DNA of 64,000 nt from Croceibacterium segetis (GTDB lineage: Bacteria; Pseudomonadota; Alphaproteobacteria; Sphingomonadales; Sphingomonadaceae): NCBI RefSeq assembly GCF_011320115.1, contig NZ_JAANOZ010000007.1, forward strand, positions 62,001-126,000. The letters run 5' to 3'. The notes beneath the pieces were generated by a model that did no database searches, had not been told where the DNA came from, and saw only the letters and a list, made by a program, of their open reading frames with translations. The position numbers and the translations under genes were made by a program. Positions 6,815 through 15,559 of this stretch are shown here, piece by piece. Numbering within the stretch: the first letter of the stretch is position 1; every line of letters starts with the position of its first letter.

Positions 6815-8119
6815 CTACTCGGCGGGCTCGGCGACTTGCGCTTGCAGCTTCTCGATACCCAGGACTTTGAGCGCCAGCCGCTCGTAGGCCGGCTCGACCA
6901 CGCCACTTTTCACCTTGTGCATGAAGTACTTCTCGAAGCCGATCTTGGCGAGGTGGACCCAGCGGCCCTCGGACGACCAGTTGGCATTCCTCGGCGGGAT
7001 CTGCGGCTGGGCGACGAAGGCGACGCCGCCGTCGCCGAAATCGGCCAGGCACACCGCATTCCAGGTCGCCCGGTGCTTCGGCTCGCCGCCGTCGAGGATC
7101 TCGCGCAGATTGTGTGCGATTGCGGTCGACATGCTCTCGATCATGAACCCGGTCTTGGGCACCCCGACCGGAACCAGCGACGGGCCGGTCGGCGGGATGG
7201 CGATGCACACGCCGAGCGCGAAGACGTTATGGAATGCGGGGTTGCGCTGGAACTCGTCGACCAGCACGAAGCCGCGCGGATTGACCAGGCCCTCGATGCC
7301 CTGGAGCGGCTTGATGCCGCGGAAGGCCGGCAGCATCATCGCGAACTTGAAGGGCAGCTCGTGCGGCACCGGGTCGCCGCTCTCGCGCAGCTCGTCGAAG
7401 GCGATCGTGCCGGGCGCGAAGCGCGTGGTCTTGGCGTTGGTGACCCACTTGATCGTGCGGTTGCGCAGCTCGCTCTCGAGCATCGACTTGGTATCGCCGA
7501 CGCCGTCGAGGCCGAGGTGGCCGATGTAGGGCTCGGGAGTGACGAAAGTCATCGGCACCCTGTGGCGCAGCTTGCGCCGCCGCAGCTCGGTGTCGAGGAT
7601 CATCGCGAACTCGTAGGCTGGGCCGAAGCACGAGGCGCCCTGGACCGCACCGACGACGATCGGGCCGGGGTCGGCGCAGAAGCGCTCGAACGCCTCGTGC
7701 GCCTCCTCGGCATGGGGCGTGGTGCAGATCGAGGCGATGTTCGCCTGCGGACCGAAGCCCTCGATCTCGTCGAACGCGAGCTCGGGACCGGTGGCGATGA
7801 CGAGGTAGTCGTAGGGCAGGCTCGAGCCGTCGGTCAGCTCGAGGCGGTTCTCCGCCGGGTTCAGCCGCTGGGCGGCGCTCGCGGTGAAGCGAATCTGCTT
7901 GCGAGCGAGCACCGGCGCCAGCTCGACCTGGATCGCCGCGGGCTCGCGCCAGCCGACCGCGACCCACGGGTTGGATGGCGTGAACGAAAACGCCGGGCGA
8001 TCCGACACGAGATGGATCTGCGCGCGATCGCCAAGCGTCTCACGCAGTTCGTAGGCGGCGACGGTGCCGCCGAGACCGCCGCCGAGGACGACGATGCGGG
8101 GTTTTGTTTCGCCGGTCAT
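6815..8119 (-). CDS. Sulfide:quinone oxidoreductase-like flavoprotein
   Basis: The protein is 434 aa with an N-terminal FAD-binding GxGxxG motif (VLGGGLGGTVAAYE, residues 11-24) and a second dinucleotide-binding signature, YLVIATGPE. SQR enzymes oxidise sulfide at the membrane and pass electrons to quinone through Cys residues. Here Cys132, Cys164 (in GASCFGPAYEF) and Cys306 (in GVCIAIPP) are candidates. The 32-residue spacing of the first two matches what I recall for Rhodobacter SQR. VPVGVPKTGFMIESM is typical of the family. The start has a good AAGGAG site. It is divergent from the dithiol repressor at 8242 and shares its 122 bp intergenic region, which supports a sulfide/persulfide role. 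Another flavoprotein disulfide reductase is the alternative. Confidence 0.85.
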   Translation of the reverse strand: MTGETKPRIVVLGGGLGGTVAAYELRETLGDRAQIHLVSDRPAFSFTPSNPWVAVGWREPAAIQVELAPVLARKQIRFTASAAQRLNPAENRLELTDGSSLPYDYLVIATGPELAFDEIEGFGPQANIASICTTPHAEEAHEAFERFCADPGPIVVGAVQGASCFGPAYEFAMILDTELRRRKLRHRVPMTFVTPEPYIGHLGLDGVGDTKSMLESELRNRTIKWVTNAKTTRFAPGTIAFDELRESGDPVPHELPFKFAMMLPAFRGIKPLQGIEGLVNPRGFVLVDEFQRNPAFHNVFALGVCIAIPPTGPSLVPVGVPKTGFMIESMSTAIAHNLREILDGGEPKHRATWNAVCLADFGDGGVAFVAQPQIPPRNANWSSEGRWVHLAKIGFEKYFMHKVKSGVVEPAYERLALKVLGIEKLQAQVAEPAE

Positions 8120-8199
8120 GGCAATCTCCTTTGCCGCGCATTGTGGTCCGCGCAGCTCGCCGGGCCATTGGGAAATCTACGAGGCGACCCGCTCTTCAA

Positions 8200-8229
8200 T
8201 TAGGCATTGCTAAATTAGCATATGCTAAT
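8200..8229. promoter_or_regulatory. Two tandem TTAG-N6-CTAA operator-like palindromes
   Basis: Two copies of TTAG-N6-CTAA lie head to tail with a 15 bp period: TTAGGCATTGCTAA at 8200-8213 and TTAGCATATGCTAA at 8215-8228. The second is the core of a perfect 16-bp palindrome, ATTAGCATATGCTAAT (8214-8229). They end 12 bp before the ATG of the ArsR-type repressor, in an AT-rich island of an otherwise GC-rich stretch, and about 80 bp from the start of the divergent SQR-like gene. ArsR-family dimers usually bind such inverted repeats, so autoregulation and control of both directions is likely (inference). Confidence 0.7.
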
Positions 8230-8241
8230 ATATTGGCGGTC

Positions 8242-8559
8242 ATGGACGTGCCGATCGCTCTCGATGATCTCACCGGCAACGCCGCCGAAGCGGCCGAGCT
8301 GCTTCGCGCGCTCTCGAGCGCTCCGCGCCTGCTGGTGATGTGCCACCTCGCCGCCTCCGGCGAATTGTCGCCGGGCGAGCTGGCCGAGCGTATCGGCCTC
8401 AGCCAGTCAGCCTTGTCGCAGCACCTCACCAAGCTGCGCGAGCAAGATCTCGTCGCCTACCGCCGCGAGTCGCAGAGCCTGCGCTACCGCGTCGCCGATC
8501 CAAAGGCGCTGCGGCTGTTGCAGCTGCTCCACGAACTGTTCTGCCCCAATCTGGACTAG
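8242..8559 (+). CDS. ArsR-family dithiol repressor (SqrR/BigR type)
   Basis: The protein is 105 aa, a winged-helix ArsR/SmtB repressor. The HTH is LAERIGLSQSALSQHLTKLR and the wing region is RRESQSLRYRV. It has exactly two Cys, Cys34 (VMCHLAASG) and Cys101 (LFCPNLD). This matches the placement of the paired Cys in SqrR/BigR, which form a polysulfide or disulfide bridge and release DNA when reactive sulfur appears. I chose the ATG at 8242 because the upstream frame reads through the palindromic operators and the divergent promoter. No strong ribosome site is visible. It heads a putative operon of sulfur genes and is divergent from the SQR-like gene. Confidence 0.9.
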   Translation: MDVPIALDDLTGNAAEAAELLRALSSAPRLLVMCHLAASGELSPGELAERIGLSQSALSQHLTKLREQDLVAYRRESQSLRYRVADPKALRLLQLLHELFCPNLD

Positions 8560-8635
8560 CCACCCTGGGACCTTTCCGGATCGTCGCCGAGATCCACACG
8601 CCGCACAAATGCCACGTCGAAACAGGATCAAACCG

Positions 8636-9565
8636 ATGCATCATGACCCCTTTCTCCAGCGCGCCATCGACCAGGTGCAGAGGACGTTGAGCGGTGAGCT
8701 GCGCGCGCCCGTGGTGCGCGGCTTCTTTCACGAGCCGACCTTCACCGCGAGTTACGTGGTCCACGATCCGGTCACCAAGCGCGCGGCAATCGTCGACTCG
8801 GTGCTCGATTTCGACCAGGCTTCGGGGCGCACATCGACGCCGTTCGCCGACGAAATGATCGCCTACGTCCGGGAGCACGATCTCGCCGTCGACTGGCTGC
8901 TCGAAACCCACGCCCACGCCGATCACCTCTCGGCCGCGCCGTACCTGCAGGAGAAGCTCGGCGGGAAGCTCGTCATCGGCAGGGCCATCCTGACGGTGCA
9001 GGAGGTTTTCGGCAAAGTGTTCAACGAGGGCAGCGATTTCGCCCGTGACGGCTCGCAGTTCGACGAGCTGCTCGACGACGGCGATGCGCTGACGCTCGGC
9101 GACATTCCCCTGATCGCGTTGCATGTGCCGGGCCACACCCCGGCGGACCTGGCCTATCTGATTGGCGACGCCGCGTTCATCGGCGACACGCTGTTCATGC
9201 CCGATTACGGCACCGCGCGGGCCGATTTCCCCGGCGGCGACGCGCATCAGCTGTTCAAGTCTATCCGCCGCCTGATGGCCTTGCCCGACAGCACGCGCGT
9301 ATTCCTGTGCCACGACTACAAGGCGCCGGGGCGCGACGCGTTCGCGTGGGAGACCACGATCGGAGCCGAGCGCACTGCGAATGTTCACGTGCACGACGGG
9401 GTTTCCGAGGACGAGTTCGTGGCGATGCGCACTGCGCGCGATGCCACACTCGACATGCCGCGGCTGATCCTGCCCTCGGTGCAGATAAACATGCGCGGCG
9501 GACAATTGCCCGAGCCCGAAGCGAACGGCACGCGCTACCTCAAGCTGCCGCTCAACGTGTTGTGA
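8636..9565 (+). CDS. Persulfide-dioxygenase-like metallo-beta-lactamase-fold hydrolase
   Basis: The protein is 309 aa with an AGGA ribosome site before the ATG at 8636. The metal motif is H92-A-H94-A-D96-H97 (THAHADHLSAAPYL), followed by HVPGHTPADLAYLIGDAA, the Asp in FIGDTLFMPDYGTA and CHDYKAPG. These are the usual ligands of ETHE1/glyoxalase II-type enzymes. ETHE1-like proteins oxidise glutathione persulfide to sulfite using one Fe and O2 in the cytosol. Homologues called Blh occur in the bigR operons of Agrobacterium and Xylella. The gene is followed by two YeeE/YedE genes, a DUF442 gene and TauE/SafE, which fits sulfite production and export. Confidence 0.85.
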   Translation: MHHDPFLQRAIDQVQRTLSGELRAPVVRGFFHEPTFTASYVVHDPVTKRAAIVDSVLDFDQASGRTSTPFADEMIAYVREHDLAVDWLLETHAHADHLSAAPYLQEKLGGKLVIGRAILTVQEVFGKVFNEGSDFARDGSQFDELLDDGDALTLGDIPLIALHVPGHTPADLAYLIGDAAFIGDTLFMPDYGTARADFPGGDAHQLFKSIRRLMALPDSTRVFLCHDYKAPGRDAFAWETTIGAERTANVHVHDGVSEDEFVAMRTARDATLDMPRLILPSVQINMRGGQLPEPEANGTRYLKLPLNVL

Positions 9566-9572
9566 GGGCGCG

Positions 9573-10007
9573 ATGCTGACTTCCGCGACCATTCTGTCCG
9601 CATTGCTCGGCGGTCTGCTGATCGGCTCGGCCGCGGGCCTGCTTCTGCTGCTGTCCGGCCGGATCGCCGGAGTGAGCGGAATGGCGGCTGCAGCCCTGCG
9701 GATCGCCGACAAGGGCCCTCCGTGGAGCCAGGCTGCGGCCTTCACGATCGGCCTGCCGATCGGGGCGGCCGTCGTCCTGGCGATCGTCGGGCGTCCCGAA
9801 GTGACGATAACCTCATCGGTGCCCCTGCTCGTCGCCGGCGGCTTGCTGGTCGGCTTCGGCACCCGCCTCGGCAACGGCTGCACCAGCGGCCACGGCGTTT
9901 GCGGTTTGGCGCGGCTCTCGCCTCGCTCGCTCGCGGCGACCGCGGCATTCATGGGCGCGGGCATCGCCACCGTTTTCGTGGCCCGTCACATCCTGGGAGC
10001 GGGCTGA
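9573..10007 (+). CDS. YeeE/YedE family membrane protein, first of a pair (DUF395)
   Basis: The protein is 144 aa with four to five hydrophobic segments, including ILSALLGGLLIGSAAGLLLL near the N-terminus. The family signature GTRLGNGCTSGHGVCGLARL carries two Cys that are thought to handle sulfur. Members of this Sulf_transp family transport thiosulfate or related sulfur species across the inner membrane; E. coli YeeE is the reference. Here the fold is split over two half-size genes, this one and the next, which overlap by one base (TGATG) and are therefore translationally coupled. The gene starts 7 bp after the metallo-hydrolase gene. Confidence 0.9.
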   Translation: MLTSATILSALLGGLLIGSAAGLLLLLSGRIAGVSGMAAAALRIADKGPPWSQAAAFTIGLPIGAAVVLAIVGRPEVTITSSVPLLVAGGLLVGFGTRLGNGCTSGHGVCGLARLSPRSLAATAAFMGAGIATVFVARHILGAG

Positions 10008-10450
10008 TGCGACATGCACTTCCCGGCCTTGTCGTCGGCACCCTGTTCGGCGCGGGTCTCGCGCTTTCGGGGATGACGAACCCCGCGCGCGTGCTCGGCT
10101 TTCTCGACATCGGCGGCCGGTGGGACCCGACGCTGGCCTTCGTTCTTGCCGCTGCGCTCGTGCCCTCGGCCTTAGCCTACCTGCTCGTCCGCCGGATGGA
10201 GCGGCCGGTCATGGCCGAGGAATTCTGCATTCCGCAGAACCGCACCGTCGAAGCGCGCCTGCTCGCCGGCGGCGCGCTGTTCGGCATCGGCTGGGGCCTC
10301 GTCGGGCTGTGCCCCGGTCCCGCGCTGGCCGGGCTCGCTTTCGGCGTCTGGCAGAGCTGGGCATTCGTCGCGGCGATGGTCGCGGGAATGTGGCTGCAAC
10401 GGCTCTACGCCGACTTACGCGACCATCGGCCCGTTCACTTCACAGGATGA
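10007..10450 (+). CDS. YeeE/YedE family membrane protein, second half
   Basis: The protein is 147 aa. The ATG at 10007 shares its A with the stop codon of the preceding gene, so I chose it over the long upstream frame. Hydrophobic segments include PGLVVGTLFGAGLALSG, LAFVLAAALVPSALAYLL and a C-terminal FVAAMVAGMWLQRL. The conserved segment FGIGWGLVGLCPGPALAGLA carries the Cys and the G-P loop characteristic of the second YeeE/YedE half. Together with the previous product it should form one sulfur-compound channel or transporter in the inner membrane, working between the persulfide enzyme and the sulfite exporter. The substrate (thiosulfate, sulfite or sulfane) cannot be decided from sequence. 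Confidence 0.88.
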   Translation: MRHALPGLVVGTLFGAGLALSGMTNPARVLGFLDIGGRWDPTLAFVLAAALVPSALAYLLVRRMERPVMAEEFCIPQNRTVEARLLAGGALFGIGWGLVGLCPGPALAGLAFGVWQSWAFVAAMVAGMWLQRLYADLRDHRPVHFTG

Positions 10451-10457
10451 TTGTCCC

Positions 10458-10883
10458 ATGACCACCACCAAACCGCTCGCCGACGACCTGTCCGTCTGCA
10501 GCTTCGTATCGCCGCAAGACCTTCCGCAATTGGCCGGTGCCTTTCGCACGATCGTCAACGCGCGTCCGGACGCGGAAGAGCCCGGCCAGCCGAGTTCGGC
10601 CGAGATCGAAGCCACCGCGCGCCGCCTGGGCCTCGAATACGTCCATATCCCGGTCGTACCCGGCCAGATCACCGACGATCAGGTCGCGGCGTTCGCCAAG
10701 GCCCTGAGCGACAAGCCCGGCCCCGTGCTCGCTTACTGCAAGTCGGGCACCCGCGCCGCCTCGCTATGGGCGCTATCACGCGCCGGCGAGCATGGCGCCG
10801 AGCAGGTCCTCGCCGCGGCGGCGAAGGCCGGCTTCGATCTCGAAGCGCTCAGGCCCCGCCTCGAGGCCAAGGCCGGGGCGTGA
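10458..10883 (+). CDS. DUF442 / TIGR01244-type sulfur transferase
   Basis: The protein is 141 aa, cytosolic, with a phosphatase-like active-site loop Y-C-K-S-G-T-R-A in which Cys94 is the presumed nucleophile. It resembles the rhodanese or tyrosine-phosphatase-like domain of DUF442. In Xylella and Agrobacterium, Blh proteins carry this domain fused to the metallo-hydrolase; here the two parts are separate genes in the same operon. A Cys-persulfide transfer role handing sulfane sulfur to the dioxygenase is the best reading, but phosphatase activity cannot be excluded. It lies 7 bp after the YeeE/YedE gene and overlaps the next gene by 4 bp (GTGA). Confidence 0.85.
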   Translation: MTTTKPLADDLSVCSFVSPQDLPQLAGAFRTIVNARPDAEEPGQPSSAEIEATARRLGLEYVHIPVVPGQITDDQVAAFAKALSDKPGPVLAYCKSGTRAASLWALSRAGEHGAEQVLAAAAKAGFDLEALRPRLEAKAGA

Positions 10884-11668
10884 CGCTCGACCTGCTCCAA
10901 TACGTCCTCGCGGCGCTATCGGGCGGGTTGGTCGGCTTTGTCCTCGGACTGGTCGGCGGCGGCGGTTCGATCCTCGCGGTGCCGTTGATGGTCTACCTCG
11001 TCGGCGTGCGCGATCCGCACGTCGCGATCGGCACCAGCGCGCTGGCCGTTGCCGTGAATGCCGCGTCGGGGCTTGTGAGTCACTGGCGGGCCGGCACGGT
11101 CAAATGGCGCTGCGCTTCGGTGTTCGCCGCCTCGGGGATCGCGGGGGCGACGTTGGGGTCGACCCTCGGCAAGGCGCTCGATGGGCAAAAGCTGCTGGCC
11201 TTGTTCGCCGTCGTGATGATCGTGGTCGGCATCCTGATGCTTCGCCGCCGCGGTGCCATCGGCAATTCCGAAGTGCGTCTGGGGCGGGAGAACGCCGGCA
11301 AGCTGATCGGGTTCGGCGCCGGTGCGGGACTGTTCTCGGGTTTCTTCGGCATCGGGGGCGGCTTCCTGATCGTGCCCGGCCTGGTGGCCGCGACCGGCAT
11401 GCCGATGTTGAACGCGGTGGGATCGTCGCTGATCGCTGTCGCCGCCTTTGGCGTCACGACGGCTGCGAATTACGCGATTTCCGGGCTCATCGATTGGCCG
11501 CTTGCCGTGCTGTTCATCGTCGGCGGCCTGGGCGGCAGCACGCTCGGGTCGACGGCCTCGCGCCGCCTGTCGGAGCGCAAGGGGATGCTGACCTCGGTCT
11601 TTGCGGTGCTGATCTTCGCCGTCGCCGCGTACATGCTTTGGCGAAGCGCCGGCGTGATGTTTGCCTGA
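10880..11668 (+). CDS. TauE/SafE family sulfite exporter
   Basis: The protein is 262 aa with about eight hydrophobic segments and the repeated family signature, first in FVLGLVGGGGSILAVPLM and again in FSGFFGIGGGFLIVPGL. TauE/SafE proteins export anions such as sulfite or sulfoacetate through the inner membrane. I chose the GTG at 10880 because it overlaps the preceding stop (GTGA), the frame before it has no protein character and the family begins near a first TM helix like LDLLQYVLAALSGG. It closes the operon and fits the removal of sulfite made from persulfide. No clear terminator follows. Confidence 0.9.
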   Translation: MTLDLLQYVLAALSGGLVGFVLGLVGGGGSILAVPLMVYLVGVRDPHVAIGTSALAVAVNAASGLVSHWRAGTVKWRCASVFAASGIAGATLGSTLGKALDGQKLLALFAVVMIVVGILMLRRRGAIGNSEVRLGRENAGKLIGFGAGAGLFSGFFGIGGGFLIVPGLVAATGMPMLNAVGSSLIAVAAFGVTTAANYAISGLIDWPLAVLFIVGGLGGSTLGSTASRRLSERKGMLTSVFAVLIFAVAAYMLWRSAGVMFA

Positions 11669-11788: not shown

Positions 11789-12217
11789 ATGCACCGCACG
11801 GGCGTCGGCGAGTGGTCGGACAAAGTTGAGGACTTGCTTGTCCGGTGCGAGGCCGCGTCGGCCGATCCGGCGAGCCTGCTGAACGATCTGCACCGACTTC
11901 TGGAAACGGGGCCCGCGCCGATTTGCGGGCCGGTCAGGCCGGCGATCTCGCGCTCGGCTTTGCAAGACCTGCTCGACGCCGGAGCCGCCGAAAGCGCGGC
12001 GTTGCGCTTGGTAAGCCGGTCCACCTACATGCTCAGCCGCGGAGGCGAAGGGCTGGTCATCGCCAGCGTGCTCATGCCGCATGCGGACTGCGACTACTCA
12101 TTCAGCGCCTTTTCGGAAGCGGTCGCGCTGTCGGGCGCGCTGGCGACGTGCCTGCACGAGCAGGTCATGGCTGAAGCAGGAAAGGATCCAGCGAACCCTC
12201 GTCTGAAGCAGAGCTAG
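11789..12217 (+). CDS. Hypothetical cytosolic protein
   Basis: The protein is 142 aa. The ATG at 11789 follows a TGGGGAG site with 8-9 nt spacing. I do not recognise a family. The sequence is mostly helical in character, with two Cys in the N-terminal half, the segment LMPHADCDYSFSAFSEAVAL and no signal peptide or membrane segment. Its 3' end overlaps the convergent response-regulator gene by 53 bp, an unusually long tail-to-tail overlap for this window. It belongs to the run of regulator-type genes from 11.8 to 15.6 kb, so a regulatory or signalling role is likely but not shown. Confidence 0.6.
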   Translation: MHRTGVGEWSDKVEDLLVRCEAASADPASLLNDLHRLLETGPAPICGPVRPAISRSALQDLLDAGAAESAALRLVSRSTYMLSRGGEGLVIASVLMPHADCDYSFSAFSEAVALSGALATCLHEQVMAEAGKDPANPRLKQS

Positions 12218-12812
12218 CGAAGCCCGAATAGAGCGCGATGGTAATCGCTTCGCCGAGGTGGTTGACCCGCAGCTTGCACATCATGTTCGAGCGGTGGATC
12301 TCGATCGTCCGCGGGCTGATCTGGAGATCGCGGGCGATGCTCTTGTTGGTCGCTCCCCGCGCCAGGCCGAACAGGACCTCCCGCTCGCGTCCGCTCAGCG
12401 CCCCCACGAGCTTTTGCGAGCGGGTGGCCTTGCGGCGCAATTCGGCGAACGACGTCCGCCGCGCCGAGAGCAGGGCGAGCCTCGCCGAGAGGTCCTCGTC
12501 GGTCATCGGCCACTTGAGATAATCCATTGCCCCCATCTGGATCACGTCGACGATCCGCGAGGGTCGCGGGTCGATCGCGTAGACAATCACCGGGAGCCAA
12601 CAGCCCCGGTCGAGCATGAGATCGAAGATCGACCCGAGGGCTTCCTCGTCGTCGTGCAGGAAGACCAGTCCGACCTCCGGCCAGAAGGCGCGCAATTCCT
12701 TCAGGTCCTCATACGGTTCGACATGACGGCCGTTGTCGTAGAAGAATCGCGCCACGCTGTTGCGGCGCAGGGGATCCGAATCGACGAGAACGATGCCTGC
12801 GCTTGGGTTCAC
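12165..12812 (-). CDS. LuxR/FixJ-type response regulator with atypical receiver domain
   Basis: The protein is 215 aa: a receiver-like domain (residues 1-125) followed by a GerE-type HTH (LSGREREVLFGLARGATNKS and the recognition helix SPRTIEIHRSNM). The acidic pair Asp11 and Asp13 is present. The usual phospho-accepting Asp of the third strand is replaced by His53 (LVFLHDD), the conserved Thr after the fourth strand is missing (VIVYAI), and Lys is shifted in DYLKWP. Phosphorylation is therefore doubtful; Asp54 or Asp55 could still serve, or the domain may be an unphosphorylated dimerisation module. The gene is divergent from the 12958 cluster and convergent with 11789. Confidence 0.85.
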   Translation of the reverse strand: MNPSAGIVLVDSDPLRRNSVARFFYDNGRHVEPYEDLKELRAFWPEVGLVFLHDDEEALGSIFDLMLDRGCWLPVIVYAIDPRPSRIVDVIQMGAMDYLKWPMTDEDLSARLALLSARRTSFAELRRKATRSQKLVGALSGREREVLFGLARGATNKSIARDLQISPRTIEIHRSNMMCKLRVNHLGEAITIALYSGFASSASDEGSLDPFLLQP

Positions 12813-12957
12813 GTCGAGTTCCCGAGATCGTCAACTTAGGTGAAGCCCTTATAGATCAGCTGGGAACGGGCCGAGAAATACCGCGAATGGTCCGCATCGG
12901 ATTGATTGAATTGGGCTTCGGAAAAGACTAGGGAATTTCTATTGGGGGGAGCGGCTC

Positions 12958-13200
12958 GTGAGGCCGTTCGGTCTTTTGTCGCCTGGGGATCGATCGACGA
13001 ACATGGACGGTGCAGGAATCCAGCCCGGTGTAGTCTTGGCGTTCGAAGAACAGGCACTGGGCGATCGGCAGTCGCGCCTGGAAGAGGTCCTTGGCAGGCT
13101 CGAGCATGATTCGGCGGTGCTCGAATCGTTGGAACTGACCCTGGCTGTCGCCTTGCTCGATCACGCGATCGCGGAAGTCAGGCGGAATCTGGCCGCCTGA
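12958..13200 (+). CDS. Small hypothetical protein
   Basis: The product is 80 aa if the GTG at 12958 is used, which has a strong GGGGAG site about 7 nt upstream. An internal ATG at 13003 would give 66 aa and begins the more ordered part (MDGAGIQPGVVLAFEEQALG). The C-terminal half is a predicted long helix rich in Glu, Leu and Arg (LEEVLGRLEHDSAVLESLEL), suggesting dimerisation or a partner-binding coiled coil. No known domain is visible. It opens the plus-strand regulator cluster and is divergent from the response regulator gene, with about 145 bp between them. Confidence 0.6.
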   Translation: MRPFGLLSPGDRSTNMDGAGIQPGVVLAFEEQALGDRQSRLEEVLGRLEHDSAVLESLELTLAVALLDHAIAEVRRNLAA

Positions 13201-13302
13201 CGGCCGATCTGAGGCCATACGATTGCGACCGCCGTCAAGGACGAGTATGGTTCGCATAACCACGCACATGAACCTCGCGCGCCACGGGACATACCCAATC
13301 CG

Positions 13303-13809
13303 ATGACAGTGATGGATCGCGATCCCGCTGACGTCCTTTGCGACCTGACCGCCAAGCAGGCGCAGGTTCTCGATCTGTTGCTCCAGCACAAGACGACGAA
13401 GCAGATTGCCCGCGAGCTGAGCATTGCTCCGAACACCGTCGATGCGCGGATCGCAGCGGTACGCGACAAGTGGGGCACCACCGATCGAAAGGCCACTGCG
13501 CGCGTCTATGCCCATCTTCTGGAGACTTGTGAGAAATCCCCATGTGGTTTTTCGCCGCTCGACCGGGACCTGACGCCCGATCAAGGATTGCTCCGGGAAT
13601 TGCCCGGGTCGCCCCTTTTCACCGTCGCCGATGCCCAGTCGCTTGGGTATTGGCCGGTGAGGACGGAAAGCTCGGGCATCCTGGAGGCTCTTGATACTCG
13701 CTTCGGCAAGATCGGGAGGGTGCTTGCAGCGAGCGGACTGGCCCTGGCCCTGGCCGCGACCGTGATGCTCACTCTGGCGATCGCCGAGGCCATGAGCAAG
13801 CTCATCTGA
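13303..13809 (+). CDS. LuxR-type HTH protein with C-terminal membrane anchor
   Basis: The protein is 168 aa. The N-terminal 75 residues are a GerE/LuxR-like HTH (LTAKQAQVLDLLLQHKTTKQ then IAPNTVDARIAAVR). A linker of about 65 residues follows, then one hydrophobic helix near the C-terminus (VLAASGLALALAATVMLTLA, about residues 144-163). The arrangement predicts a DNA-binding domain in the cytosol anchored at its tail in the inner membrane, without a sensor domain. No receiver domain is fused. The segment YWPVRTESSGI in the linker is characteristic but unassigned. It sits between two small unknown genes in a row of regulators. Confidence 0.75.
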   Translation: MTVMDRDPADVLCDLTAKQAQVLDLLLQHKTTKQIARELSIAPNTVDARIAAVRDKWGTTDRKATARVYAHLLETCEKSPCGFSPLDRDLTPDQGLLRELPGSPLFTVADAQSLGYWPVRTESSGILEALDTRFGKIGRVLAASGLALALAATVMLTLAIAEAMSKLI

Positions 13810-13862
13810 GCAAGGAGTCTCCGATCGCAACTTGAGCCTCATCGGCGCCCGGAGACGATAAA

Positions 13863-14192
13863 ATGGACAAGATGACCGCTGGCCTGCGAATTTCACGCGG
13901 GATACGCAACCTCGAGAACATGCTCGACGAAGTCCTGGCCGAGGCCGGCAAGCTCCAGTCGGACGTGTCGCAGGCGAGGATCACCCTGGACGAATCCGCG
14001 CTCTCGACGCAGCGGCCGATTGCCAGACTGGCTAGCTTGCAACAGCATATCGTGGACGCCCGCTCGAAGATCGTCGGCGTTCATGCCGACCTCGCCAAGA
14101 TCTCCGCCAAGCAACGGGACATTCCGCTTGAATGCAGCCCCAATTGCCAGAATGGGTTGCTGGAGAGTTCGCCGTCCGTCGCGGCGGCGTAG
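13863..14192 (+). CDS. Small coiled-coil-like hypothetical protein
   Basis: The protein is 109 aa with a GGAG site 8 nt before the ATG. Residues 1-95 look like a long amphipathic helical hairpin with regular Leu/Ala spacing (RNLENMLDEVLAEAGKLQSD and LQQHIVDARSKIVGVHADLA). A short tail with two Cys in ECSPNCQNG follows. No enzymatic motif or membrane segment is visible. It lies 53 bp after the membrane-anchored HTH gene and 16 bp before the 4-TM gene, so the three are probably cotranscribed. A scaffold or partner protein is possible, but I do not recognise the family. Confidence 0.6.
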   Translation: MDKMTAGLRISRGIRNLENMLDEVLAEAGKLQSDVSQARITLDESALSTQRPIARLASLQQHIVDARSKIVGVHADLAKISAKQRDIPLECSPNCQNGLLESSPSVAAA

Positions 14193-14208
14193 AGGAGAAG
14201 GATCTGGC

Positions 14209-14658
14209 TTGCCCGACTTGGGGATTTTCGCGTTCGCCACGATCCTGTTTCTTTCGATAAGCTTCGCCTTTGCCAGAGGGGGAGCGCCCGAAAGATGGGG
14301 TGCGCTGGTGATCGTGTCCATGACGGGCATTCAGGTCGCGAGCGCATTCTTCCAGCATCAGAAGTATCACTCGGTCGATCTCGCATCGGTAATTGTCGAC
14401 GCCTACGGGGTCGTCGGATTTGGAGCCATTGCGCTCTACGCACGAAGGGCATGGCCTATATGGGCAACGTCGCTGCAAATTCTCAGTTTGAGCTCGCATT
14501 TCGCGCGCCAGGTCGACAGCGGCGTGTCGCCGATGGTTTACGGTCTCATGAAGAGCAGCCCGACGTTCTTCGTCCTGGTTGCCTTGCTCGTGGGAACGGC
14601 GGCGCACAGGCGACGCTTGCGGGTGCGCGGGGCGGATCCTGGCTGGATGGATTGGTGA
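14209..14658 (+). CDS. Small integral membrane protein (about 4 TM)
   Basis: The protein is 149 aa. I chose the TTG at 14209 because a GAGGAG site lies about 10 nt upstream and the first hydrophobic helix (FAFATILFLSISFAFA) follows directly; no ATG fits as well. Four hydrophobic segments are visible (also LVIVSMTGIQVASAFF, VIVDAYGVVGFGAIALY and FFVLVALLVGTAAH), with a charged C-terminal tail. I do not recognise the family. Its stop overlaps the start of the JAB-domain gene by 4 bp (GTGA), so the two are translationally coupled. It could be a membrane partner of the HTH protein at 13303. Confidence 0.6.
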   Translation: MPDLGIFAFATILFLSISFAFARGGAPERWGALVIVSMTGIQVASAFFQHQKYHSVDLASVIVDAYGVVGFGAIALYARRAWPIWATSLQILSLSSHFARQVDSGVSPMVYGLMKSSPTFFVLVALLVGTAAHRRRLRVRGADPGWMDW

Positions 14659-15050
14659 AGCCAGGCGATATTCTGCTCCCGCTCGAGAGAGCCTTCTTCA
14701 CGCGGATCCTCGGCTACATCGGCGCGCTCGAAGAAGAGGTGCTGCTGTTCATCTATCTCGATCGCGCGGGCGCCCTGATCGGCGACGAATTAATCGCCGG
14801 CGGGACAAGATGCTCCCATGGCATCGGCTATCGACGGCTGTTCGAGAAAGCATTCAGTCGGGGCGCGGCAGCGCTGGTGCTCGCCCACAACCATCCGTCC
14901 GGCTCGGCGGAACCGAGTCTGCAGGACATTTCATCGACCAGGGCTCTTCGGGCGCTCGCGATCCCGATGCAGATGGAACTCATCGATCATGTGATCGTGA
15001 GCGCCCGCGCCGTCTTCAGCATGCGCGCGGCGGGACTGCTAAGCGATTGA
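14655..15050 (+). CDS. RadC-like JAB/MPN domain protein without the N-terminal HhH part
   Basis: The protein is 131 aa. The C-terminal JAMM-type signature is clear: a Glu early in the domain, then HNHPSGSAEPS and Asp (AEPSLQDISSTRAL), followed by LIDHVIVSARAVFSMRAAGL, as in RadC proteins. Full-length RadC is about 220 aa with a helix-hairpin-helix N-terminus that is missing here. The metalloprotease-type site suggests hydrolysis of a peptide or isopeptide bond; RadC's real function is unknown. I start it at the GTG overlapping the previous stop; the TTG one codon upstream is equally possible. The overlap couples it to the membrane protein. Confidence 0.75.
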   Translation: MKPGDILLPLERAFFTRILGYIGALEEEVLLFIYLDRAGALIGDELIAGGTRCSHGIGYRRLFEKAFSRGAAALVLAHNHPSGSAEPSLQDISSTRALRALAIPMQMELIDHVIVSARAVFSMRAAGLLSD

Positions 15051-15082
15051 CAGACCTAAACAATCGACCAAGGGGAATCGTC

Positions 15083-15559
15083 ATGGAAGTCTTCTTCAGC
15101 AATCCCCGGTTGGGCCGCGAACCTACGAGCAGGACCGCCATGGCTGGTGACGATTTCATTGCCGCGATGCTCGGTTACGAACACCGGGCACGGAAGCTGC
15201 GAAATGAAACTTTCGACGCGGCGGTGATCAATGATTCCAGCTGGCCGCTGCTGCAGGACTTGCTGGCCGCGCACTTGAAGGGCCAAAAACTGCGCACCAA
15301 GCAACTCTGTGCAGCCAGCGGACTGCCGCAGACGACGGTCTTGCGCTATCTCGACCATCTCGAGAGGTTCGGCGTTGTCCGCCGCGAAAGCGATCCCGGC
15401 GACAGCCGCGTTACGCTGGTATCGGTCACCGAAGCCGGTGCCTTGCGGATGCGCGAGTATTACACGAGATTGCTCGCGATCGAGCGGCAATTGGGACGCT
15501 CCGAAGAGGGGTTGTTCAGCTTGCGGGCCCCAGCGGAAAATGCCGGCGCGAAGAACTGA
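15083..15559 (+). CDS. MarR-type winged-helix regulator
   Basis: The protein is 158 aa with an AAGGGG site before the ATG. A winged helix occupies about residues 55-125: the HTH (LRTKQLCAASGLPQTTVLRY), then LDHLERFGVVRRESDPGDSR, a typical MarR wing, then VTEAGALRMREYY. The N-terminal 40 residues are specific. MarR-family dimers repress nearby genes and respond to small ligands or redox. No obvious ligand site is visible. It follows the JAB gene by 32 bp and ends the regulator cluster. The 150 bp after it contain a 6-bp-stem hairpin without a T-run. Confidence 0.8.
   Translation: MEVFFSNPRLGREPTSRTAMAGDDFIAAMLGYEHRARKLRNETFDAAVINDSSWPLLQDLLAAHLKGQKLRTKQLCAASGLPQTTVLRYLDHLERFGVVRRESDPGDSRVTLVSVTEAGALRMREYYTRLLAIERQLGRSEEGLFSLRAPAENAGAKN

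Follow-up and report, generated by a model that had tools for sequence, protein, structure and literature searches.

The window analysed here, a stretch of 64,000 nucleotides from the genome of Croceibacterium segetis, contains between positions 11789 and 15559 a compact cluster of eight genes (g1 to g8 in what follows), the last five of which form a conserved operon-like unit (g4-g8, 13303-15559). This unit, which we call the cassette, codes for a LuxR-type helix-turn-helix (HTH) protein with a predicted membrane anchor, two proteins without Pfam family, a RadC-type JAB protein and a MarR-like winged-helix protein. The cluster had been delimited correctly in the initial annotation, both in its coordinates and in its composition (seven frames on the plus strand and one on the minus strand). 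The features of the cassette are the following.

13303-13809, plus strand: g4, 168 aa, LuxR/GerE-type HTH protein, predicted tail-anchored transcription factor (Pfam GerE 2.2e-10)
about 13345-13503, plus strand: HTH of g4, followed by a variable linker and then by a single C-terminal membrane segment
about 13720-13806, plus strand: C-terminal membrane segment of g4 (hydrophobicity prediction)
13863-14192, plus strand: g5, 109 aa, long alpha-helical hairpin in the AlphaFold model, without Pfam family
14209-14658, plus strand: g6, 149 aa, membrane protein with TTG start, five membrane-length helices in the AlphaFold model, no Pfam family
14655-15050, plus strand: g7, 131 aa, RadC-type JAB (JAMM) protein with GTG start and without helix-hairpin-helix (HhH) region (Pfam RadC JAB 1.1e-27)
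14886-14903, plus strand: HNHPSG metal-binding motif of g7, read in the sequence
15083-15559, plus strand: g8, 158 aa, MarR-like winged-helix protein (Pfam HTH_27 3.5e-7)

The gaps between the consecutive genes g4 to g8 are 53, 16, -4 and 32 nt. The negative value corresponds to the overlap of the g6 stop with the g7 start as GTGA (14655-14658), and the coupling of the membrane-protein gene with the JAB gene that had been pointed out earlier is therefore present. All eight frames of the cluster are under purifying selection in the comparison with another genome of the same genus, G002 (dN/dS of 0.38, 0.36, 0.26, 0.20, 0.15, 0.24, 0.23 and 0.24 for g1 to g8, the dS values of g3 and g5 being close to saturation).

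Protein g4 combines a DNA-binding domain and a predicted membrane segment in a single polypeptide, the arrangement of a one-component regulator. The GerE domain was detected with Pfam in 39 of 41 g4 homologues, and a hydrophobic segment near the C-terminus was predicted in 78 of 79 at a Kyte-Doolittle (KD) value above 1.4 and in 77 of 79 above 1.6, in agreement with the original description of g4 as a membrane-tethered HTH protein. Because the tail beyond the predicted segment is short, mostly 5-25 residues, g4 has no apparent periplasmic or sensory domain of its own.

The g5 product was modelled as a long helical hairpin with a pLDDT of 89.3, and its alignment contains four near-invariant residues (E18, D22, R39 and H74). 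For g6 the AlphaFold model has five membrane-length helices (pLDDT 94.8) instead of the four transmembrane segments that had been proposed for it, and G24, E28, D64, A75, H97 and Y111 are near-invariant in the alignment. No convincing Pfam family was found for either of them among the 39 members of g5 and 36 of g6 that were scanned (two single weak matches in each case), Foldseek gave zero fold relatives at E<=0.001 for both, and profile searches against the PDB produced nothing convincing. With VIA-align the top match of g6 (Z 10.1) was a designed binder, followed by the tails of catenin and vinculin, and microbial rhodopsins appeared at about 7-8; for helical bundles, such similarities may reflect no more than a common arrangement. 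Judging from these searches, g5 and g6 are two protein families without a Pfam entry.

Conservation and co-inheritance of the cassette

We have compared 78 cassettes of Sphingomonadaceae. The g4-g5-g6 trio was found in 75 of them, a RadC-type JAB gene in 40 and a MarR-like gene in 36; g4, g5 and g6 are the conserved core of the cassette. The cassettes belong to two sets. The first was anchored on g6 (the window cassette plus 40 of the 43 matches to g6 found in relatives, n=41) and contained g4 in 41 cases, g5 in 39, JAB in 26 and a MarR-like gene in 19. The second was anchored on g5 (37 cassettes in 36 stretches, hand-picked from a longer list of strong and weak matches, several of them from many-copy genomes and a few with a neighbour seen beforehand) and contained g4 in 36, g6 in 36, JAB in 14 and MarR in 17, the g4 and g5 profiles having been built from the same loci where the neighbours were later counted. 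The exceptions to the trio were L073 and L093, in which g5 was not found, and L131, with g5 alone. The idea that these genes belong together, for which the co-occurrence of homologues had been suggested as a check, is thus borne out, with the trio split in three of the 78 cassettes. In two other genomes of the same genus, G003 (L065) and G004 (L066), the trio is found with neither a JAB nor a MarR gene, and the genes that come next in the two genomes belong to a single family; the one in L065 (8673-9683) codes for an N-acetylmuramidase according to Pfam.

In wider searches, g5 was present in at least 113 of 199 Sphingomonadaceae genomes, a single-sequence query with g6 had matches in 36 of 118 relatives, and the g6 alignment matched at least six of 289 class-wide genomes, four Sphingomonadaceae and two Caulobacteraceae. 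The figures for the 199 and 289 genomes, like the one for 298 genomes given below for the fusions, are lower bounds, as part of the first-look candidates were scored. Homologues of g5, g6 and the winged helix (g8) were also seen near the end of an unannotated human-stool phage contig labelled 'UNVERIFIED' (L291, 241-1485), which was considered too uncertain and left unused.

In the Caulobacteraceae g6 was found in 46 of 60 genomes. Examination of 24 loci of this family gave the trio on one strand in 13 (strict same-strand count), all three genes distributed over two strands in L201, and ten loci without g4 or g5. Two of the loci carry tandem rows of g6 copies, with seven g6-type profile matches in L194 (1527-4665) and five in L195 (6614-9323); the copies are divergent and come after a single g4-type gene. 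Furthermore, a scan with the g5 alignment using strict g5 patterns provided 98 named loci, of which the best 80 (mostly Phenylobacterium) had the full trio in 78, g4 not being found in L229 and L282. These 80 loci were mostly from Phenylobacterium and Caulobacter (Caulobacter vibrioides T5M6 included), and additionally from Polymorphobacter, Sandarakinorhabdus and Glacieibacterium. Neither JAB nor MarR genes were seen beside the core in the 24 Caulobacteraceae loci, nor on the g5 strand in the best 80 of the 98 named loci, and for this reason the JAB gene appears to have been added to the cassette in the Sphingomonadaceae.

Sequence distances of g4, g5, g6 and g7 were correlated in Mantel tests (r 0.60-0.71, with 0 of 2000 permutations as high). 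The correlation persisted in partial Mantel tests with the housekeeping RadC as species control (0.55-0.85, 0 of 5000), carried out on the 21 of 40 JAB cassettes with a housekeeping RadC sequence, two of them from one genome, and the g4-g5 pair gave the highest value. Therefore, g4, g5, g6 and the JAB gene are co-inherited beyond species relatedness. In one chromosomal clade the cassette is located at a fixed site between aminotransferase and enoyl-CoA hydratase genes, beside phaC, and in four loci of this clade an OmpR-type winged helix (checked with Pfam in one) is encoded after it. The remaining copies are scattered or plasmid-borne.

The JAB protein and its winged-helix partner

Protein g7 matched the RadC-type JAB family PF04002 at 1.1e-27 and the PDB entry 2qlc at 1e-13, and its score against NCBIfam PRK00024 was 89.5 bits, below the cut-off of 180. 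The HxH...S..D metal-binding motif is present (HNHPSGSAEPSLQD). All 40 cassette JABs have the HxH and the downstream D, and 37 of them also have the motif Ser, so that the JAMM-type domain postulated at the outset has its metal ligands intact. About 20 residues precede the JAB match in g7, which has no N-terminal HhH region. The original view of a JAB domain deprived of its HhH partner is right for this protein, but, judged by eye, 31 of the 40 cassette JABs retain an N-terminal RadC-like remnant with a decayed hairpin, and none could be recognized in the other nine, the window protein included. With Pfam, no HhH was detected in six tested cassette JABs, apart from a match of 0.08 in one.

The C. 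segetis genome encodes a housekeeping RadC separately. When the 40 cassette JABs were placed in one tree with 20 housekeeping RadCs, the two labels required 2 changes, against a mean of 17.0 after shuffling, and a branch with support 100/98 separates the 20 housekeeping RadCs plus one cassette JAB (L086) from the other 39 cassette JABs. The branches of the cassette JABs are often long, up to 1.41 compared with up to 0.45 for the housekeeping RadCs. Being unrooted and without outgroup, this tree gives neither the direction nor the number of duplications. Altogether, the alignments and the tree point to the cassette JAB as a diverged relative of RadC.

The winged helix of g8 is clear (HTH_27 with 30.8 bits, cut-off 22.2), and the MarR-type matches in Pfam stay just under the cut-off (MarR_2 26.5 bits, 7.3e-6, versus 27, and MarR 22.3 versus 24.6). 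The decisive link between this protein and g7 is the existence of fusions. At seven loci, including two with identical fused proteins, a single reading frame encodes JAB and MarR-like winged helix, the latter as the C-terminal part. Sphingopyxis fribergensis is among the carriers of such a fusion. Full-length fusions were present in at least seven of 298 genomes of the family (two of these seven genomes overlap with the initial seven loci), in all seven within complete g4-g5-g6 cassettes, and they occur on plasmids too. When four of the fusions were analyzed with Pfam, the JAB domain was well above the cut-off, and the winged helix was above it in two and just below in two. In G002, where JAB and winged helix are separate proteins, the two together align along the whole fusion and are divided by a single stop. 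The fusions tie the JAB to a second regulator, the MarR-like g8, with which it probably works together.

One Caulobacteraceae locus, found in two genomes, has at the position after g6 a gene with an S24 peptidase domain, preceded by an N-terminal HTH recognizable by eye:

L112 8808-9443 and L113 8405-9025: S24-domain protein (LexA/CI-like), directly after the g5-g6 genes, same locus in two genomes

This protein is a second instance of a peptidase plus a DNA-binding domain at the position following g6.

A possible membrane-linked control of transcription

We propose tentatively, and at somewhat less than even chances, that the cassette is a two-layer, membrane-linked system for transcription control, composed of a tethered switch and a JAB/winged-helix unit. 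In the first layer, which is the conserved core g4-g5-g6, the C-terminal helix would keep the LuxR-type HTH protein at the inner membrane. The helical hairpin of g5 most likely binds g4, these two being the pair with the closest co-inheritance of all, and the likeliest role of the five-helix membrane protein g6 is to sense a signal and to gate the g4-g5 pair. In the second layer (g7-g8), seen only in Sphingomonadaceae, the stand-alone JAB metalloenzyme would act with the MarR-like winged-helix regulator, the two being encoded side by side or fused into one. The JAB is most likely a metallopeptidase that processes a regulator, with its winged-helix partner as the foremost candidate, and such processing would switch the output irreversibly. 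Taken further, RadC-type JAB proteins would be dedicated metallopeptidases of transcription regulators; the RadC relative of the cassette would have lost its HhH part, become attached to a LuxR-type membrane switch with two protein families lacking a described relative, and would process the winged helix, in some genomes inside the same polypeptide. We see this extended claim as being on the unlikely side, but if true the RadC domain would for the first time have a role in regulation, and with it a substrate amenable to study.

Several observations weigh against the proposed control system. The JAB gene is missing from 38 of the 78 cassettes and a MarR match from 42. The co-inheritance of g8 is weak, with Mantel r of 0.14 with g4 (30 of 2000 permutations as high), 0.22 with g5 (10 of 2000) and 0.22 with g6 (0 of 2000), which indicates that this gene is often exchanged; even with g7 the value is 0.31 for 15 cassettes (16 of 2000). 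At the column assumed to be that of the JAMM glutamate, E is present in 29 of the 40 cassette JABs (the window g7 has it), and the S24 instance comes from one locus. Sensing by g6 is a guess, as its five-helix model has no clear fold relative. Finally, proven peptidase activity of RadC-type JAB domains is not reported in the available text of PMC5512222, PMC3482391 and PMC11981726, and the first two, in the same portions, propose nucleic-acid processing for the RadC clade.

Nucleic-acid processing is actually the main rival. The JAB would be a nuclease or a nucleotide-processing enzyme guided by the winged helix to particular DNA sites, and a membrane signal would result in DNA processing instead of proteolysis. 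Such a role fits the genomes in which the JAB is fused to a DNA-binding domain, and also the RadC-like N-terminal remnant retained by most cassette JABs. However, the HhH is absent, by eye, from 9 of the 40 (the window protein among them) while the H, H and D persist, and PMC11981726, in the part available, describes a RadC-like domain without structural similarity to nucleases that resembles metalloproteases. We consider this explanation unlikely.

The cassette could also be mainly a regulator of plasmids or conjugation that settled secondarily on chromosomes. Among 16 plasmid regions the trio was found in 12 (from Sphingopyxis, Sphingobium, Blastomonas, Novosphingobium, Sphingomonas and Asticcacaulis), g4 and g6 only in three and g4 only in one. 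According to the annotation of others, plasmid pKN1 of Sphingobium yanoikuyae CC4533 has the same five-gene order as the window (HTH-hyp-hyp-JAB-MarR). In six of the 16 regions the distance between a g4-type gene and transfer genes is at most about 5 kb. In two sphingomonad plasmids (L289 and L297) a cassette with the JAB-winged-helix fusion is located between the trb operon and mobF, and in L288 the g4-type gene is near trbB. The other three (L287, L298 and L300) are Novosphingobium plasmids that carry g4- and g6-type genes and lack g5; a UPF0149/YecA gene comes after the pair, and virB-type transfer genes lie a few kb further downstream. The G+C content of the cluster genes in the window, about 61-63% versus about 66% in the surroundings, also speaks for this reading. 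On the other hand, the fixed chromosomal site of one clade is what vertical inheritance predicts, nine of the 16 plasmid regions have no annotated transfer genes in the stretch read and a tenth, L292, is unannotated, and zero transfer genes are found beside the cassette in the window. A role centred on conjugation seems distinctly unlikely to us, and we retain it as a lead.

The model put forward in the initial annotation was that the JAB and its membrane partner release or tune the anchored HTH protein, taken here as cutting g4 off the membrane. The overlapping genes g6 and g7, the co-inheritance of g7 with g4, g5 and g6 and the predicted anchor of g4 all speak for it. Nevertheless, the anchored HTH protein is retained without a JAB in the 38 Sphingomonadaceae cassettes that lack one and in the Caulobacteraceae loci read, so the g4 core exists without JAB, and the fusion partner of the JAB is the MarR-like protein instead of g4. 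A juxtamembrane stretch of g4 (loose VPxxLDG or GxxNxL patterns) was looked at as a candidate JAB cleavage site and rejected, since it does not follow the presence of the JAB, being found in 31 of the 40 cassettes that have one and in 26 of the 39 that do not. With a core common without JAB and a stretch that does not follow it, the model is weakened and not supported, and we assign it little probability.

Unrelated neighbours packed by chance are virtually out of the question in spite of the lineage-specific g1 and g3 and the exchanged g8, being refuted for g4-g7 by the neighbourhood counts (75 of 78 trios), the co-inheritance after species control in the partial Mantel test and the fusions. 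An anti-phage system was rejected as well, as PADLOC gave weak generic matches for g4, g5, g7 and g8 (best 0.00027) and none for g6, and so was a phage origin, as the PHROGs matches were limited to HTH, JAB and a few weak others.

The types of parts are known (tethered regulator, JAB, winged helix), and the combination and the two families g5 and g6 are apparently new. The cassette is apparently undescribed so far: a full-text literature search, with most subscription journals outside its coverage, found no description of it and nothing alike, in line with the earlier statement that no system of this composition was known, nor did the literature searched, with partial coverage, contain a regulator-peptidase role for a JAB of the RadC clade. 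Among described systems, HdrRM and BrsRM are pairs of a LytTR regulator and a membrane inhibitor, and resemble the cassette in that a regulator is encoded with a small multi-helix membrane partner; they differ in the class of DNA-binding domain, and here g4 is itself anchored and a third protein is present. ImmR/ImmA, DdrO/PprI, LexA and CI are systems of a regulator plus a metallopeptidase or autopeptidase, and share with the cassette a peptidase-type domain adjoining or fused to a DNA-binding regulator, whereas the enzyme class here is a JAB/JAMM of the RadC clade. ToxR and CadC, which are membrane-bound one-component regulators, have, like g4, the DNA-binding domain and the membrane anchor in one protein. 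The same likeness holds for the archaeal ArnR and ArnR1, membrane-bound one-component regulators according to the available part of PMC6396743. Unlike these four regulators, g4 has a GerE-type HTH, a single C-terminal helix and a short tail, and hairpin and five-helix partners are encoded alongside. With RadC itself (UPF0758, PF04002) g7 has in common the JAB domain with the HNHPSG...PS..D motif. The differences are the lack of HhH in the window g7, the position of 39 of 40 cassette JABs across the 100/98 branch of the unrooted tree from the housekeeping RadCs, and the ties of the cassette JAB to membrane and DNA-binding partners, including the fusion to a winged helix in some genomes.

If the proposed control system is correct, a signalling module as widespread as the g5 counts in Sphingomonadaceae (at least 113 of 199 genomes) and the g6 counts in Caulobacteraceae (46 of 60) would be gained. 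The cassette also provides a handle on RadC, namely a relative with a conserved genetic context and a fusion partner, and hence a testable substrate, and offers a clue to the possible action of RadC-type proteins. As far as their available parts go, PMC5512222, PMC3482391 and PMC11981726 predict a nucleic-acid enzyme or urge further study of RadC, and the last one states that there is as yet no research on the RadC-like DinG.

Flanking genes

The three remaining genes of the cluster precede the cassette:

11789-12217, plus strand: g1, 142 aa, lineage-specific, 3' end overlapping g2, no significant Pfam or NCBIfam family
12165-12812, minus strand: g2, 215 aa, FixJ-like regulator with degenerate receiver domain (GerE 1e-18)
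13003-13200, plus strand: g3, 65 aa, upstream of g4, lineage-specific, no significant Pfam or NCBIfam family

Both g1 and g3 had been included in the cluster at first, and fall outside the conserved unit since they are confined to the genus. Among 118 genomes, homologues of g1 were found in three (C. segetis, G002 and, weakly, G003) and those of g3 in two (C. segetis and G002). Gene g2 was counted as a neighbour only, because of its opposite orientation and because FixJ-like genes are common, no search having been aimed at it. Its Response_reg match in Pfam (20.7 bits, 5e-4) is below the cut-off of 30.2, and by eye a His is found where the phospho-acceptor Asp is expected. The 3' end of g2 overlaps g1 by about 50 nt. 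The g2 arrangement recurs at L062 of G002, with one more LuxR-type gene coming next.

Upstream of the cluster, at 6815-11668, there is a sulfur cluster (names assigned by eye from the open reading frames). It contains genes for a FAD-dependent sulfide oxidoreductase-like protein, an ArsR-type repressor, an ETHE1-like metallo-beta-lactamase, two YeeE/YedE-like membrane proteins, a rhodanese-like/DUF442 protein and a TauE/SafE-like transporter.

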